Below are positions 9,182-18,748 of a stretch of DNA of 36,912 nt, piece by piece (position 1 is the stretch's first letter; every line of letters begins with the position of its first letter). This DNA is from a virus: positions 1-36,912 of the IMG/VR virus record IMGVR_UViG_3300043015_000083, one strand, 5' to 3'. Under the pieces are notes generated by a model that saw only the letters and a list, made by a program, of their open reading frames with translations, ran no database searches and was not told the DNA's origin. The position numbers were made by a program, and so were the translations under genes.

Positions 9182-10441
9182 TTAGTAACCTGCCACAGGG
9201 TCTAAGATTTCAAAGTCGTCTTCTTCGTAGTCGTAGTAGTATGCTACTTTTGCTAGTTGGTCAATATATGCAAGTGCGTCAACCAAGTCATCATGCACGA
9301 GGGCATTAGGAAACTGAAAGAGTTCGTCAAGGAACGTAGGGTTCCAATCACCTTCGTTTAAGACAATCTGTCCGTGCTCAAAGCGTCCTTGAAGAGCCCA
9401 GACAACACGATCAGTTTTCTTTTTGTTTCCATGCGTTAGTTCCTCCACCCTGAAGAACCGTTGTTTTGACTTCATCAAATCTGTAAGGTAAGGAAGTACC
9501 GCATTCTTTAAGGCTCCTTTTTCGATACCAACCGCTACTGGTTGATAAGCATCGACAGCCTCGAAAATCTTTCTGGCGGTCTTTTTGATATCCCATCTTC
9601 CATGTACAATATCCGCTACCCACCATCCGTCTTCATTTGCCTTAACGATTGCTATCGCTGTTTGGTCGAGTTTTTTGTTCTTAGACTTCGTTGCGCTTTC
9701 AACATCAGCAAAGCCCGCAAGGTCGACTGCAATATAATAATCCCCAACGTCAGGCTCTTCATCAGAAAACTTAACCCAATCCTCTTTGAAGATCTCAGAA
9801 CCCAGTGCTTCAAACGATGCCAGAAACTCCTGTCGGAATGCATAGGATGACATTGACTTCTTAGCAACATCAATTTCGTCTGGGTCGAGTAGTGGGTTGT
9901 CATAAGACGTAAAATGCCACGCCTTATAAGTCTCATCGCCTGACATTTCCGCATATTTAAACAACTCGTAGAAGTGATTACGGCCCATAGGGGTTCCTAT
10001 GAACATCGCTTGGCCCTTTTGGTCAGCTAGGGCAGGCCGTAGGATGGTTTCCCATACACTAGGCTTCATATCCGCATATTCGTCCATGACAAGGAACTTA
10101 AGGGATACACCACGCATTGTTTCTGGACGGTCAGCACCTTTGAGACTGATGGTAGCACCGTTGACCAGTTTGATTGTCAGGTTGTTAATGTGACTACCTG
10201 TGATGACTGGACTACCTAAGTCCATCAAGGTGTTCCACATAATGTCTCTAGCCTGCCCCTGCGTTGGAGCTACGTAGAAGACGTGTCCTCGCTCAGTCTG
10301 TAGAGCGTTGATAATGAGCATCCATGCCGCTAGACGGGACTTGCCAGTACGACGACCTGCGGCAATAACTTTGAAACGCACAGGGTCACTAAAGACATCC
10401 TGTTGCCACGGGAGAAGTTCGACATTGAGTTCTGTCGACAT
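9182..10441 (-). CDS. terL: Terminase large subunit (packaging ATPase-nuclease)
   Basis: A 419-residue protein with both halves of a packaging motor. The ATPase half has Walker A GRRTGKS (residues 29-35), followed by the Q-motif-like YVAPTQGQAR, and Walker B FLVMDE (116-121). The RNase H-like nuclease half has Asp240 in YIAVDLAG, Glu307 in VGIEKGA, and HDDLVDAL with Asp384/385/388. All expected acidic residues are present. The ATG overlaps the lysozyme stop (TAATG), so translation is probably coupled. Confidence 0.95.
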   Translation of the reverse strand: MSTELNVELLPWQQDVFSDPVRFKVIAAGRRTGKSRLAAWMLIINALQTERGHVFYVAPTQGQARDIMWNTLMDLGSPVITGSHINNLTIKLVNGATISLKGADRPETMRGVSLKFLVMDEYADMKPSVWETILRPALADQKGQAMFIGTPMGRNHFYELFKYAEMSGDETYKAWHFTSYDNPLLDPDEIDVAKKSMSSYAFRQEFLASFEALGSEIFKEDWVKFSDEEPDVGDYYIAVDLAGFADVESATKSKNKKLDQTAIAIVKANEDGWWVADIVHGRWDIKKTARKIFEAVDAYQPVAVGIEKGALKNAVLPYLTDLMKSKQRFFRVEELTHGNKKKTDRVVWALQGRFEHGQIVLNEGDWNPTFLDELFQFPNALVHDDLVDALAYIDQLAKVAYYYDYEEDDFEILDPVAGY

Positions 10442-10899
10442 TAAGCCTTAGCGTCCTTCATGATGTCGACAAGCTCTTTGCTACGACGACCGACTTGACG
10501 ATACCACTTAGAGTCAATCATCTCATTAGCGGCCATTAGATAGTTACCTTCGTTGACGTAACGTAGCATATTCTTGAATTGTGCTAGACGATTACGCCCA
10601 AGGTTGAATGCCATGTTCACAAGAACCCTTTGGGCATCTGGAGCTTGTCCTGCAAAGTTTAAGACAAGAGTACAGGCATCAGTGTAAGCAACATCACAGT
10701 CCTTACGGAAAACATCAAGGATTCTTTCGTCAGTCACGGGTGTGCCGACAGGCCAAGTGTGCTCCATGTCGTCTTCGGTAACCATATGGCCGATGCCAAA
10801 GGTCGGGTATCCTTCAGAACACAAGTAGATCTCAGTGACGTAACCTTCGTGACGAACTAAGTCTTCTTTCACAATTTCGATTAGTTCATCCTTCTTCAT
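10441..10899 (-). CDS. T4-type lysozyme (endolysin, GH24)
   Basis: A 152-residue muramidase that would cut the glycan strand of peptidoglycan. The catalytic pattern is Glu18 (HEGY), Cys27, Thr33, then the FGIGH box, with spacing identical to T4 lysozyme Glu11-Asp20-Thr26. Cys in place of Asp is a known natural variant. I placed the start at ATG 10899, which has GGGGAG three bases upstream and gives the family N-terminus; an ATG at 11028 would add 43 residues lying inside the upstream gene. There is no signal peptide, so export needs the holin. The gene lies between the small and large terminase genes, an odd place for an endolysin. Confidence 0.92.
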   Translation of the reverse strand: MKKDELIEIVKEDLVRHEGYVTEIYLCSEGYPTFGIGHMVTEDDMEHTWPVGTPVTDERILDVFRKDCDVAYTDACTLVLNFAGQAPDAQRVLVNMAFNLGRNRLAQFKNMLRYVNEGNYLMAANEMIDSKWYRQVGRRSKELVDIMKDAKA

Positions 10900-11305
10900 C
10901 AACTCCCCTAGACTCGTCTTCGACAAGTTCCGCGTCAATAATATCGTTTTCAGTGACCTTTGCATCACCAATGCCACTAATGGTAATCGACACTGAAGGG
11001 CGACCACCACTAGCATTATCTTTTTCAAAGTAACTCACAGGCAACATACGATCCATTAAGAGTTTCCAAGCCGCCGCTTGGTTTTTATGGTCATCGTTTA
11101 GTGCCGCATCAAGAATGCTATCTAAGACCTTCTTGGACTTAGGTGAAGCCAACATCCTAGCTTTATATTCATTAATGATTGCGGTGTCGCCCGGAGGTCG
11201 ACCAACCTTGTTCCTTTTTGTTGGCATTTTTGATTCGACATCTTGTTTTCTAGGTCGACCAATCTTTTTACCACTAGGGCTTAAGGTTTCTTTGTAATCT
11301 GACAC
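10886..11305 (-). CDS. Probable terminase small subunit (DNA-binding)
   Basis: A 139-residue protein, first gene of the late operon, downstream of the promoter at 11412-11440. The basic N-terminus contains two AT-hook-like motifs (GRPRKQ near residue 17 and GRPPG near 36). A helical core (about 45-95) includes KVLDSILDAALNDD and AAAWKLLMDRMLP, and the C-terminus is acidic. Short proteins of this type precede the large terminase in many marine podoviruses and are taken as small terminases. The call rests on position, DNA-binding motifs and memory of relatives, not on a diagnostic motif. Confidence 0.65.
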   Translation of the reverse strand: MSDYKETLSPSGKKIGRPRKQDVESKMPTKRNKVGRPPGDTAIINEYKARMLASPKSKKVLDSILDAALNDDHKNQAAAWKLLMDRMLPVSYFEKDNASGGRPSVSITISGIGDAKVTENDIIDAELVEDESRGVDEEG

Positions 11306-11592: not shown

Positions 11593-11692
11593 AGGGGTTT
11601 CCTGAGGGTTTCCTTAGCAAGTCTGGGTGGGTACACTGAAATATCAATAGAACACTAGGCACCCCCCGGCCCCTTAGGACACCCTAGGCCAC

Positions 11693-11835
11693 TTATCCAC
11701 AAGAAATACACAGGAAACACACAGGCAATCCACAAGTGATCCACAGTGTGCATAAGTTATCCACAAGTGGACAACCTGTGGGTAACTCAAGGGTATCCAC
11801 AGGGTGTACACAAAAGGATACACAGGTTATCCACA
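11693..11835 (+). other. Candidate replication origin: cluster of DnaA boxes
   Basis: Three perfect high-affinity DnaA boxes TTATCCACA occur at 11693-11701, 11757-11765 and 11827-11835. One-mismatch copies are at 11737-11745, 11793-11801 and, inverted, 11777-11785; weaker ones are at 11726 and 11816. The CACARG core recurs every 11 bp at 11698, 11709, 11720, 11731 and 11742, and CACA again at 11798, 11809, 11821 and 11832, so the sites lie on one face of the helix. The cluster sits where the two gene arms diverge. I infer that host DnaA, or a phage protein with the same specificity, binds here. Confidence 0.7.
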
Positions 11836-11883
11836 GGGTTCTTGAGGGTGCAAGTGTGTGAGCCTAAGTAGTACCCTCAGGAC

Positions 11884-11925
11884 ACACCCAAGCAACACCC
11901 AAGCAACACCCAAGCAACACCCAAG
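11884..11925 (+). repeat. 11-bp tandem repeats (iteron-like)
   Basis: Three exact units ACACCCAAGCA at 11884, 11895 and 11906, plus a fourth partial unit (9 of 11 bases) at 11917. The 11-bp period is the same as in the adjacent DnaA-box array. It is non-coding and directly beside the candidate origin, so a binding site for an initiator is the most likely meaning. Confidence 0.85.
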
Positions 11926-11975
11926 TGTTACCAAACCACACTACACATGTGTTACCAAATCACCCAAGTGTTACC
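11925..11975 (+). repeat. GTGTTACC repeats
   Basis: The octamer GTGTTACC occurs at 11925, 11949 and 11968. The first two continue as CAAACCAC-like sequence. Spacings are 24 and 19 bp. They follow the 11-bp tandem repeats and precede the first early gene. They may be operator or initiator sites; nothing identifies the protein that would bind. Confidence 0.6.
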
Positions 11976-12030: not shown

Positions 12031-12062
12031 TTTCCAAAGTTGGCATGGTGTCTGCATATACT
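12031..12062 (+). promoter_or_regulatory. Possible early promoter, -10 only
   Basis: TATACT at 12057-12062, within GCATATACTATGG, lies 33 bases before the first early ATG. The best -35 candidates are TTGGCA at 12040 (spacer only 11) and TTTCCA at 12031 (spacer 20), neither good. The same TATACTATG occurs before the gene at 23283. An upstream activator could compensate, or the true promoter may be elsewhere in the repeat region. Confidence 0.35.
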
Positions 12063-15074: not shown

Positions 15075-15451
15075 TGTCTGTAATTAACGGTACTGTCGCT
15101 TTTGCTAACCTAGCAGAGCATGAGGTCTACAACGGCCAATCAACTGGCAAATACTCAATCGTCCTTGCCCTTGACGAACCTGAAGCTGAGAAGCTGAAGG
15201 CGGAAGGTGTCAAGATCCGTGAGTACAAAAATATCCCACAGCGCAAGTTCGCTACCAAGTTCGACCAGTTCCCTGTCGTTGACAATGATGGTGAGCCTGT
15301 GAGCAAGGCGTCTGTACGCTACGGTGACAAGGTGCGTATCAAGTACAACCTTGGCAACCCTCACCCTGTCCACGGAACTTCTGTGTACTTACAGGCTGTC
15401 CGTGTTGTCGAGAAGGGGGAGATGGACATTGTGGACGATGGAGAGTTCTGA
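15074..15451 (+). CDS. Single-stranded DNA-binding protein (T7 gp2.5-like role)
   Basis: A 125-residue OB-fold-type protein just upstream of the primase-helicase. It has alternating beta-strand segments (GTVAFANLA, YSIVLALDEPEAEKL, VRYGDKVRIKYNL, VYLQAVRVV) and an acidic tail ending DIVDDGEF. T7 gp2.5 also ends in an acidic tail with a terminal Phe, which contacts the polymerase and helicase. This protein is about half the length of T7 gp2.5, so it is a minimal version. AAGGAGG lies upstream. Confidence 0.85.
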   Translation: MSVINGTVAFANLAEHEVYNGQSTGKYSIVLALDEPEAEKLKAEGVKIREYKNIPQRKFATKFDQFPVVDNDGEPVSKASVRYGDKVRIKYNLGNPHPVHGTSVYLQAVRVVEKGEMDIVDDGEF

Positions 15452-17036
15452 GTTCCTAGGCCATCAAGGGTGTAACAAGTGCGGGAGCAGTGATGCTCTC
15501 GCTACTTACTCAGATGGTCATGGGTATTGTTTTAACTGCCTAACTCATTTCAAGGAGGTCGACGGATTGGAAGCTATTGAGAGCAACATCGTCAACTACA
15601 ATAAGCCTGTCGAAATGTACGGTACACCAATGGCAATCACAGATCGTCGGATATCTCTCGACACTGTGAAACGCTACGGTGTAACGTCAGACGATACAAA
15701 GCAGTATTACCCGTACTACGATAAGGACGGTAAGCTGATCGGCTCCAAGGTTCGCACAGTGGCAACCAAGGACTTCAGCACTCGTGGTGATATGCGACAG
15801 AATGTCCTGTTCGGACAACAACTGTTCAAGTCAGGTGGTCGATACGTGACTGTCGTCGAGGGTGAACTAGACGCAATGGCCGCTTATGAGATGCTTGGGT
15901 CACGCTATTCTGTGGTCTCAGTGTCCAAAGGGGCAGGTGGTGCAGTCAAAGACTTCAAGCAGAACCTAGAGTGGCTTGAGGGCTTTGAGAATGTCGTCAT
16001 CTGTTTCGACAATGATCCTGCAGGTCGTGAGGCCGCAGAGAAGTGTGCTCAGGTACTCAGCCCTAACAAGGCTAAGATCGTCACGCTAGGAGCGTTTAAG
16101 GACGCCTCAGACTACCTTAAGAACAATAAGGTCAGACAATTCACTGCTGAGTGGTGGGAAGCAAAAGCCTACCGCATGACCGGGGTGATTACCCTTGAGG
16201 ATGCTTGGGGTGACTTTATCAAGCGTGGCACAGAGGAGGTCATTCCCTTCCCTGAGTCATTCGGGATGCTGAACTCCATGTTGAACGGAGGTGTTGCCGC
16301 AGGAGAGATTACTGTTGTCGGTGCACTCACGTCTGTTGGTAAGACCACTATGGTCAACGAGATCGCCTATCACTTCTGGAAGAATACCAGTAAGACGATT
16401 GGCTGTGCGTTCCTTGAGGCATCCAATGGTGAAGCTGTTGAGAGTCTTCTGACTGTTCACACAGGGCACAATCTGTCCCTTGAGGATCGCAAGAACATTG
16501 ACTACGATCAACTGCGGACAGATATCATCACTGACGGTCGGATCTTACTGCTAGATCATAACGGTGCTGTCGATACTGATGAGTTGTTCTTGAAGCTCCG
16601 TGCGATGGTCAAAGGCAACGGTTGTGACGTGTTGATTATCGACCCGTTACAGGCGGCAGTTACTAGCAACAGCAACGAGACCATTGACGAGTTCATGGAT
16701 CGTTTGCTCAAGCTCGCCAAGGAGACCGATGTGTCAATCATTGTGGTTAGTCACATGCGGAAGCCTAGTCTGACGAATCCACACAATGTCAACGAGTACG
16801 ATCTGAAGGGCTCAGGCTCGATCAATCAGATTGCATTTAATACGATTCTGTTGAGTCGTGACAAGATGGCAGAGGACGAGTATGCACGGAACAGCACACA
16901 AGTGCAGGTCGTTAAGTGTCGTCGCACAGGCATTACAGGATCGGCAGGTTGGTTGTACTACAATGCATTAACTGGTAGACTAGAAAGAGGTGAGAAACCA
17001 GAAGTTCACGAAGCAAACAACATTGAGGAGTTCTAA
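15438..17036 (+). CDS. DNA primase-helicase (T7 gp4-like)
   Basis: A 532-residue bifunctional protein that would unwind the fork and make primers. From the chosen ATG at 15438: a zinc-binding domain (Cys12, Cys15, Cys31, Cys34), a Toprim primase domain (Glu142 in VVEGELDA; Asp191 and Asp193 in CFDNDPAG), and a RecA-like hexameric helicase with Walker A GALTSVGKT (295-303), Walker B VLIIDPLQ, VSHMRKP and the GSGSINQIAFNT motif that T7 gp4 also has. The C-terminus NIEEF is acidic with a terminal Phe. A longer frame from 15324 lies inside the SSB gene and is rejected. It overlaps the SSB gene by 14 bases. Confidence 0.96.
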   Translation: MESSEFLGHQGCNKCGSSDALATYSDGHGYCFNCLTHFKEVDGLEAIESNIVNYNKPVEMYGTPMAITDRRISLDTVKRYGVTSDDTKQYYPYYDKDGKLIGSKVRTVATKDFSTRGDMRQNVLFGQQLFKSGGRYVTVVEGELDAMAAYEMLGSRYSVVSVSKGAGGAVKDFKQNLEWLEGFENVVICFDNDPAGREAAEKCAQVLSPNKAKIVTLGAFKDASDYLKNNKVRQFTAEWWEAKAYRMTGVITLEDAWGDFIKRGTEEVIPFPESFGMLNSMLNGGVAAGEITVVGALTSVGKTTMVNEIAYHFWKNTSKTIGCAFLEASNGEAVESLLTVHTGHNLSLEDRKNIDYDQLRTDIITDGRILLLDHNGAVDTDELFLKLRAMVKGNGCDVLIIDPLQAAVTSNSNETIDEFMDRLLKLAKETDVSIIVVSHMRKPSLTNPHNVNEYDLKGSGSINQIAFNTILLSRDKMAEDEYARNSTQVQVVKCRRTGITGSAGWLYYNALTGRLERGEKPEVHEANNIEEF

Positions 17037-18748
17037 TGCAGTGCGTGTGGGATATTGAGACCAACGGCCTCAAGCCAACTAAGATATGGTGCCTATGTGC
17101 TATCAAGGGTGACAATATGTACACGCTTGAGAACCCAACGAAAGAGATGGTTGAAGACCTATTCGCTGACGTGACGGTGCACATCGGCCATAATTTGATT
17201 GGTTACGATATCCCTACTGTTGAGCGACTCTTGAACGTGTCGATAAAAGGTGAAATCATCGACACATTGGTGATGTCACGTTTATACAATCCACAATTAG
17301 AGGGAGGACATTCACTTGCCGCATGGGGTGAGCGTCTAAACTTTCCAAAAGGAGACTATCATGATTGGTCTGCGCTTACGCCAGAAATGGTGGAGTATTG
17401 TAAGCAAGACGTTAGCGTTACTCAACGACTACACGAGAAACTCAGTGGGCTTCTTAGTGAGTTTGGAGATAACAGCATTACTCTTGAGCACTCAGTACAA
17501 CGTGCAATTACAAAGCAAATCCAAAACGGTTGGCTCTTAGATGAGCGTAAGGCTACTGACTTAGTAGCAGAACTAAAGGAGAAACAATATGATCTTGAAG
17601 AAGCCGTACATGAAAAATTTCGTCCGTTACCTACGTTCATTAAAGAGATCGTACCTAAGTACAAGAAAGATGGTTCGCTTTCTTCAGTGGGACTCAAATT
17701 CTTGGGCGACAACTGGACGCAAGTAGGCGGCCCCTTCTCTCGCATTGACTGGCCTGAGTTCAACCTAGGATCTCGACAGCAGATCGGGAGGTATCTTAGG
17801 CTCTTTGGTTGGAAACCAGAGAAGTTTACGGAGACTGGTCAGGCTATTGTCGACGAAAAGACACTGGAAGCTGTTACTGATATACCTGAGGCTCAGCTTA
17901 TTGCGGAGTATCTCATGGTTGGTAAGAGGATCGCACAAGTCCAATCATGGCTTGACGCAGTCGAGGATGACGGTCGAGTCCATGGACAGGTCAACGCAAT
18001 CGGAGCAGTCACAGGACGTATGACACACAGCAGTCCTAACATGGCTCAAGTGCCTGCCGTAGGAGCACCCTATGGCTACGAATGTCGTGCCTGTTGGATT
18101 GTGCCAGAAGGTCACAAGCTCGTCGGTGTGGACGCTTCAGGGCTAGAACTTAGGATGCTTGCATCATTCATGAACGACAAGGAGTATACTAATGAAATCC
18201 TTAACGGAGACATTCATACAACAAATCAGCGAAATGCAGGATTGTCTACACGATCTCAGGCAAAAACATTTATATACGCCTTCCTATACGGAGCAGGAGA
18301 CGCTAAAATCGGCTCTATTGTGGATGGCAGTCAGAGGACTGGAGCGAGACTTAGACAACGCTTTCTCGACAATACTCCCGCACTTGCAGAGCTTAGAGAA
18401 AAAGTCTCCCTCGCCTCTCAACGAGGATACCTCAGAGGACTGGACGGACGATGCCTTCACATCAGAAGCGAACATTCTGCCCTGAATACACTCCTTCAGT
18501 CTGCCGGGGCAGTCGTTATGAAGAAAGCTCTAGCAATCTTCACAGAATATGCTCCTAAGTGGAATCTGACGTACAAGCTCTTGGGGTCAATCCACGATGA
18601 ATACCAGATAGAGGCACCTGAGAAACACGCTGACAAAGTTGGTTGGCTGATGGTTGAGTCCATCAAGGCCGCAGGGATAGCATTGGATCTCAAGTGTCCT
18701 CTTGATGGTGAATATAAAGTTGGAAATAATTGGGCAGAGACCCATTAA
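17036..18748 (+). CDS. DNA polymerase, family A (T7 gp5-like)
   Basis: A 570-residue replicative polymerase. Exonuclease residues: Asp6 and Glu8 (WDIET), Asp58 (HNLIGYDIP), Asp125 (YCKQDV). Polymerase motif A is VDASGLELR (Asp366), motif B runs Arg406, Lys410, Tyr414 in QAKTFIYAFLYGAG, and motif C is SIHDE (520-522). The motif B Tyr matches T7 Tyr526. LDNTPALAELR and ALNTLLQSAGA are also shared with T7 gp5. It is shorter than T7 gp5 (704), and the thumb region that holds the thioredoxin-binding loop in T7 is reduced. The ATG overlaps the helicase stop. Confidence 0.97.
   Translation: MQCVWDIETNGLKPTKIWCLCAIKGDNMYTLENPTKEMVEDLFADVTVHIGHNLIGYDIPTVERLLNVSIKGEIIDTLVMSRLYNPQLEGGHSLAAWGERLNFPKGDYHDWSALTPEMVEYCKQDVSVTQRLHEKLSGLLSEFGDNSITLEHSVQRAITKQIQNGWLLDERKATDLVAELKEKQYDLEEAVHEKFRPLPTFIKEIVPKYKKDGSLSSVGLKFLGDNWTQVGGPFSRIDWPEFNLGSRQQIGRYLRLFGWKPEKFTETGQAIVDEKTLEAVTDIPEAQLIAEYLMVGKRIAQVQSWLDAVEDDGRVHGQVNAIGAVTGRMTHSSPNMAQVPAVGAPYGYECRACWIVPEGHKLVGVDASGLELRMLASFMNDKEYTNEILNGDIHTTNQRNAGLSTRSQAKTFIYAFLYGAGDAKIGSIVDGSQRTGARLRQRFLDNTPALAELREKVSLASQRGYLRGLDGRCLHIRSEHSALNTLLQSAGAVVMKKALAIFTEYAPKWNLTYKLLGSIHDEYQIEAPEKHADKVGWLMVESIKAAGIALDLKCPLDGEYKVGNNWAETH

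Follow-up and report, generated by a model that had tools for sequence, protein, structure and literature searches.

A DnaA-box array in the predicted terminal repeat of phages from a marine family

The phage genome

The sequence considered here, referred to as the window, is the whole of IMG/VR virus record IMGVR_UViG_3300043015_000083, a viral contig of 36,912 bases without an end repeat. On its left strand are the genes for terminase, portal, capsid and tail functions, among them the terminase large subunit (9182–10441, minus strand) and a putative small-terminase-like gene (10886–11305, minus strand), which matched no family and owes its name to its position and the look of its sequence. 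The right-strand genes include a primase-helicase (15324–17036, plus strand; these are the limits of the open frame, and the true start lies further in), a family A DNA polymerase (17036–18748, plus strand), a Cas4-type exonuclease, a T7-type endonuclease and ribonucleotide reductase, together with several early proteins of unknown function, one of them of the GP88 family. Both the primase-helicase, whose presence had been predicted, and the family A polymerase are of the T7 type, as in the Autographiviridae. The single-subunit RNA polymerase that also defines that group is missing, again as predicted: there was no PF00940 match in the window or in 12 relatives, the same search detecting the polymerase in the positive controls CRP-403 and FBKp16. 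Nor was a DnaA C-terminal domain found in the window or the 12 relatives in a search that included positive controls, and the idea of a phage-encoded DnaA was dropped.

The genes from the two ends of the window are neighbors in one relative, G012, which suggests that the window was assembled in circularly permuted form. A genome scan for the host led to three mixed metagenome bins (Sphingobacteriales, Verrucomicrobiales and Crocinitomicaceae), and the assignment was not trusted.

A phased array of DnaA boxes

An array of DnaA boxes occupies positions 11693–11835 (plus strand). It contains three exact copies of TTATCCACA, at 11693, 11757 and 11827, all on the plus strand, and four copies with one mismatch: TGATCCACA at 11737 (plus), TTATGCACA at 11747 (minus), TTACCCACA at 11777 (minus) and GTATCCACA at 11793 (plus). 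The original prediction, made from the sequence of the window, had the exact copies right but listed three one-mismatch copies instead of four, and hence six boxes in all rather than seven. Weak copies at 11704, 11715 and 11726 lie in register, in steps of 11 bp. The left part of the array (11693–11745, plus strand) has the form of an oriC-like sub-array, in which the strong box at 11693 is followed by four weak copies on the same strand (those at 11704, 11715, 11726 and 11737), with gaps of 2 bp; the 11-bp spacing is also seen in the direct-repeat families D1 and D2.

Could such a cluster arise by chance? The array has a cluster score of 10, compared to a mean of 0.07 and a maximum of 2 in dinucleotide shuffles of the same 143 bp, where none of 2000 reached the score of the array, and to a maximum of 3 in 100 shuffles of the whole window. 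A scan of all 36,912 bases found no further exact TTATCCACA outside 11693–11835, and the boxes are thus concentrated at this one place, as had been expected, and phased in 11-bp steps. The loose pattern TTWTNCACA, which was to be scored across the genome as a check, occurs 6 times against 4.2 expected and is not enriched overall, so the signal is the cluster. The array is real and non-random, and it presents the strong DnaA-box cluster above chance that is looked for in an origin of the oriC type.

Sequence, spacing and flanks all support the reading of these repeats as DnaA boxes. Their G-TTATCCACA-G context is that of the strong boxes R1 and R4 in Escherichia coli oriC; among relatives, the box consensus is AAGTTATCCACAGGTT, and box-to-box spacings peak at 11–12, 19–23 and about 33 bp. 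The array thus resembles oriC in its strong R1/R4-type boxes, in their flanking bases and in the weak boxes at 2-bp gaps. Unlike oriC, however, it is non-chromosomal, lies at a predicted genome end and has no neighboring AT-rich unwinding region. The AT-rich tract that had been noted to the left does exist, but a gap of more than 90 bp separates its end, near 11599, from the closest box. Directly to the left of the array (11660–11689) the AT content is 27%, the flanks overall are 27% and 43–50% AT, and no AT-rich unwinding region was found directly beside the boxes on either side. A GC-skew switch had been sought at 11.7 kb, and the cumulative GC skew does reach a minimum nearby, at about 12.0 kb. 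Gene orientation switches at the same place, however, so as evidence for an origin the minimum is confounded and not independent.

Location in a predicted terminal repeat

The array lies between two conserved elements, a circumstance overlooked in the original prediction. The left element, GAGGGTACTACTTAGGCTCACACACTTGC (11850–11878, minus strand), is a predicted terminase cut region, to which contig starts and direct terminal repeat (DTR) starts of relatives map. The right element, GTGTACCCACCCAGACTTGCTAAGGAAACCCTCA (11603–11636, minus strand), is a predicted second cut region, where the DTR ends of two relatives, G031 and G021, are found. Between the array and the right element is a GC-rich block (11660–11679) that is also present in most of the relatives shown. 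The same frame is present in relatives without boxes: a left element resembling GGGTACTACTCAGACACACACACT is followed by a stretch that varies, then by a GC-rich block, and finally by a right element resembling GTACCTACTCAGATACAAAAAAGAG. In the 70 relatives that have both elements, the interval between them is 110–339 bp and holds 57 of 62 DnaA sites.

G031 (35,752 bp) and G021 (36,338 bp) are both near-complete and have exact direct repeats at their ends, of 146 bp and 221 bp, respectively, the latter containing all of the G021 boxes. Both repeats run from within the left element as far as the right element. Chance end overlaps of 106–149 bp are seen elsewhere in other contigs, so the argument is the coincidence with both elements and not the overlap itself. 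Contig starts are consistent with this picture: of the 15 mappable to intact relatives, five fall within 17 bp of the start of the left element, and two are no more than 8 bp away from the right element. This mapping worked better than matching to truncated HMMs, by which the pile-up of contig ends (4 of 32, versus 0–4 in the null) was not significant. Judging by homology to the G031 and G021 repeats, the most likely place for the array is within a short DTR of about 240 bp, predicted at approximately 11632–11871, with ends uncertain by a few bases, and present as a single copy in the permuted assembly. Just outside the left element, and outside the predicted DTR, there is a second block of 11-bp repeats (11884–11927, plus strand), made up of ACACCCAAGCA units, with a period equal to that of the boxes.

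Relatives and other regulator-like sites

A terminase-based scan yielded 80 related contigs. In 42 (the window included), the sequence reached far enough upstream of the small-terminase-like gene; 20 of the 42 showed a DnaA-box array in that region, nearly always 250–590 bp from the gene. The array is thus conserved in the sense that it recurs, about half of the relatives being box-less. In a set partly chosen by the DnaA pattern, the density of boxes upstream of this gene is 158 times that elsewhere in the same contigs; the 20 of 42 come from the terminase-only set. The boxes remain identical while the adjacent small-terminase-like protein drops to about 35% identity. When the presence of the array is traced on a terminase tree with 82 rows, 16 changes are required, compared to 20.3 with shuffled labels, and well-supported branches force at least 11 of the 16, which indicates that the array has been gained or lost often. 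When the viral collection was scanned blindly for contigs with three exact boxes close together, 37 of the 119 contigs recovered belonged to the family of the window. In the range L081–L199, outside the family, more than half of the contigs with such boxes have no match to any of its proteins.

Sites resembling those of other host regulators occur in the same interval. All 24 NtrC-like sites and 28 of 30 sigma-54-like sites in the relatives lie between the two elements; Fur-like sites are found inside the interval and also just downstream, and LexA-like sites are not concentrated there. Read from consensus patterns, the NtrC-, sigma-54- and Fur-like sites are 79- to 381-fold denser in the terminal zone than elsewhere in the contigs. 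Sigma-54-like sites that fit the strict pattern are oriented mostly toward the early arm (27, versus three toward the late arm). None of the recognized site types was found in 45 of 127 relatives. The window itself has a sigma-54-like promoter sequence, TGGCATGGTGTCTGC (12041–12055, plus strand), that fits the relaxed pattern only; it precedes the first early gene and is directed into the early arm.

Individual relatives vary in what the interval contains. L007, L013, L017, L012 and L035 have rows of sigma-54-like sequences (TTGGCACGnnnnTTGC), mostly directed into the early arm, and L029, L023, L033, L358 and G021 (L234:60-180) have NtrC-like palindromes (GCACCAnnnTGGTGC or looser), which in G021 alternate with pairs of DnaA boxes. 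Fur-like repeats are found at or beside the interval in L080, L033 and L035. In an unrelated T5-type Klebsiella phage (L217:400-620), three Fur-like copies adjoin DnaA boxes.

Similar arrays in cultured phages

A blastn search with the array of one relative as query led to T7-like phages that have been grown in culture. Shigella phage A7 (Berlinvirus) has four exact boxes in a 177-bp DTR, which accounts for all eight exact boxes in its genome. PhiEap-1 (Eapunavirus) has five in a 195-bp DTR (10 of 11 in the genome), and Klebsiella phage ZK1 (Molineuxvirinae) has six in a 292-bp DTR (12 of 13 in the genome). Like the window, these phages have phased exact boxes in a short repeat and almost none elsewhere, and the idea that the combination is unique is not supported. 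They differ in being Autographiviridae records, with an RNA polymerase annotated in phiEap-1 and found in FBKp16, a ZK1-like Molineuxvirinae phage; the family of the window has none. Since polymerase-bearing T7-like phages carry the same arrays in their DTRs, the array is not a substitute for a missing polymerase, and this explanation, part of the original prediction, is rejected.

Helically spaced short repeats near genome ends are also found in T7 itself, as SRL and SRR, but these have a different motif and lie beside the terminal repeat, outside the DTR.

How do the Zobellviridae compare? The window family A polymerase is 39–40% identical to that of SIO1, a member of this group. The replication module, the two-arm layout and the lack of an annotated RNA polymerase are shared with SIO1 and VpV262, and the VpV262 record places its terminal repeats between the two arms, as predicted for the window. 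On the other hand, the window terminase is only distantly related to that of any cultured phage, with no TerL match covering more than 80% of its length, and exact boxes are absent from SIO1 and VpV262, as they are from Pelagibacter phage HTVC103P and Roseobacter phage CRP-403; all four were rejected as array carriers.

For T5, the presence of DnaA boxes in the terminal repeat is already known. The T5-type phage DT57C has boxes in both copies of its terminal repeat, and according to a 2026 paper (PMC13250531), repeats and DnaA boxes are characteristic of the T5 injection stop signal, with which host components may interact. This statement is the only close report found. The likeness to the stop signal of the T5 family (Demerecviridae) consists in DnaA boxes within the terminal repeat of a virulent phage; in T5, however, the repeat is far longer, the boxes lie several kilobases from the end, and entry takes place in two steps, for which no counterpart is known here. 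A search of the open-access literature turned up no account of DnaA boxes in short terminal repeats, whether of T7-like phages or of the marine family of the window, nor any paper on the DTR boxes of A7, phiEap-1 or ZK1.

The array query also matched small single-stranded DNA records resembling Microviridae (MG945568, PQ006258, OQ686952 and others). Lactococcus phage AM4, a large phage of the 949 type, has two separate DnaA-box arrays, at 98048–98090 and 106131–106484.

What might the array do?

Host DnaA very likely binds the array, to judge from the sequence of the boxes, their flanks and phasing, and the convergence of different phages on them. Binding would presumably be cooperative, since R1/R4-type boxes are placed on one face of the helix in a phage that has no DnaA of its own. 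If the array lies inside the DTR of a linear T7-type genome, it would be present at each physical end of the DNA and wherever two genomes join in a concatemer. The account that we favor, with about as much confidence as doubt, is that the genome ends serve as a docking platform for host DNA-binding regulators, the array providing high-affinity sites for host DnaA. The largest group of lineages with recognized sites would use DnaA in this way, and others would use their apparent NtrC, sigma-54 or Fur sites. The bound protein might act at the first steps after the genome end enters the cell: it could hold the end, pause entry, as has been proposed for the DnaA boxes of the T5 stop signal, or set transcription of the early arm by host RNA polymerase.

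The main rival is a DnaA-dependent replication origin, which is credible but rather less probable. Host DnaA would load at the genome end or concatemer junction and open the DNA, whereupon synthesis would be started by the phage primase-helicase or host DnaB, a process that might also serve to duplicate the terminal repeat for packaging. The strong box followed by weak boxes in the same orientation is indeed what oriC arrays look like; the helicase and polymerase are in place, an origin primed by a phage RNA polymerase is impossible, and the skew minimum is close by, although confounded by gene orientation. An oriC-like function, as in the original prediction, is nevertheless doubtful: nothing AT-rich adjoins the boxes, about half of the relatives with the same replication genes have none, and the array apparently sits inside a terminal repeat. 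In addition, T7-like phages with their own RNA polymerase have the same arrays, and the slot holds NtrC-like or sigma-54-like sites in other relatives. The traces expected of a docking platform would be equally expected of an origin at the junction. Docking is preferred because there is no opening region beside the array and because an origin leaves the sites for other regulators unexplained. The same arrangement in unrelated T7-like phages likewise suggests that this is probably a docking place for a host protein and not simply a copied bacterial origin.

Alternatively, the repeats, once amplified, could titrate host DnaA, as datA does, and halt new rounds of host replication. Each copy would bring many consensus boxes, multiplied by phage replication, and the parallel use of sites for other host regulators would be accounted for. 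However, a virulent phage equipped with nucleases would hardly need to block initiation, and titration requires neither placement in the DTR nor helical phasing, which makes this explanation improbable. Still less plausible is that the repeats are read by terminase for packaging or end processing, comparable to the short repeats of T7, and that their likeness to DnaA boxes is incidental. The location inside the DTR next to the terminase genes would suit such a role, and relatives do have other phased repeats, but the same nine bases recur across unrelated phage families and stay exact beside a small-terminase-like protein that has diverged so far. Iterons for a phage-encoded initiator, suggested by the spacing and by the uncharacterized early proteins, including the GP88-family protein, are scarcely believable, since the boxes equal R1 and R4 in extended context and no DnaA C-terminal domain was found in the window or the 12 relatives.

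Returning to the docking platform, a wider reading can be put forward tentatively, as a possibility on the doubtful side. The short terminal repeat of this large marine family may be a swappable slot for host global regulators (DnaA, NtrC, Fur and sigma-54), gained and lost many times, with unrelated T7-like and T5-like phages having converged on the DnaA version. The first steps of the virus in the cell would thereby be tied to the replication or nutrient state of the host. If host DnaA binds the genome ends of T7-like phages, a textbook phage group has an unexplored dependence on its host, in entry, early transcription, replication or packaging, and the question is testable at once in the cultured phages A7, phiEap-1 and ZK1. 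The use of a single terminal slot for sites of different host regulators, if true, would represent a novel means by which virulent phages gauge the state of their hosts.
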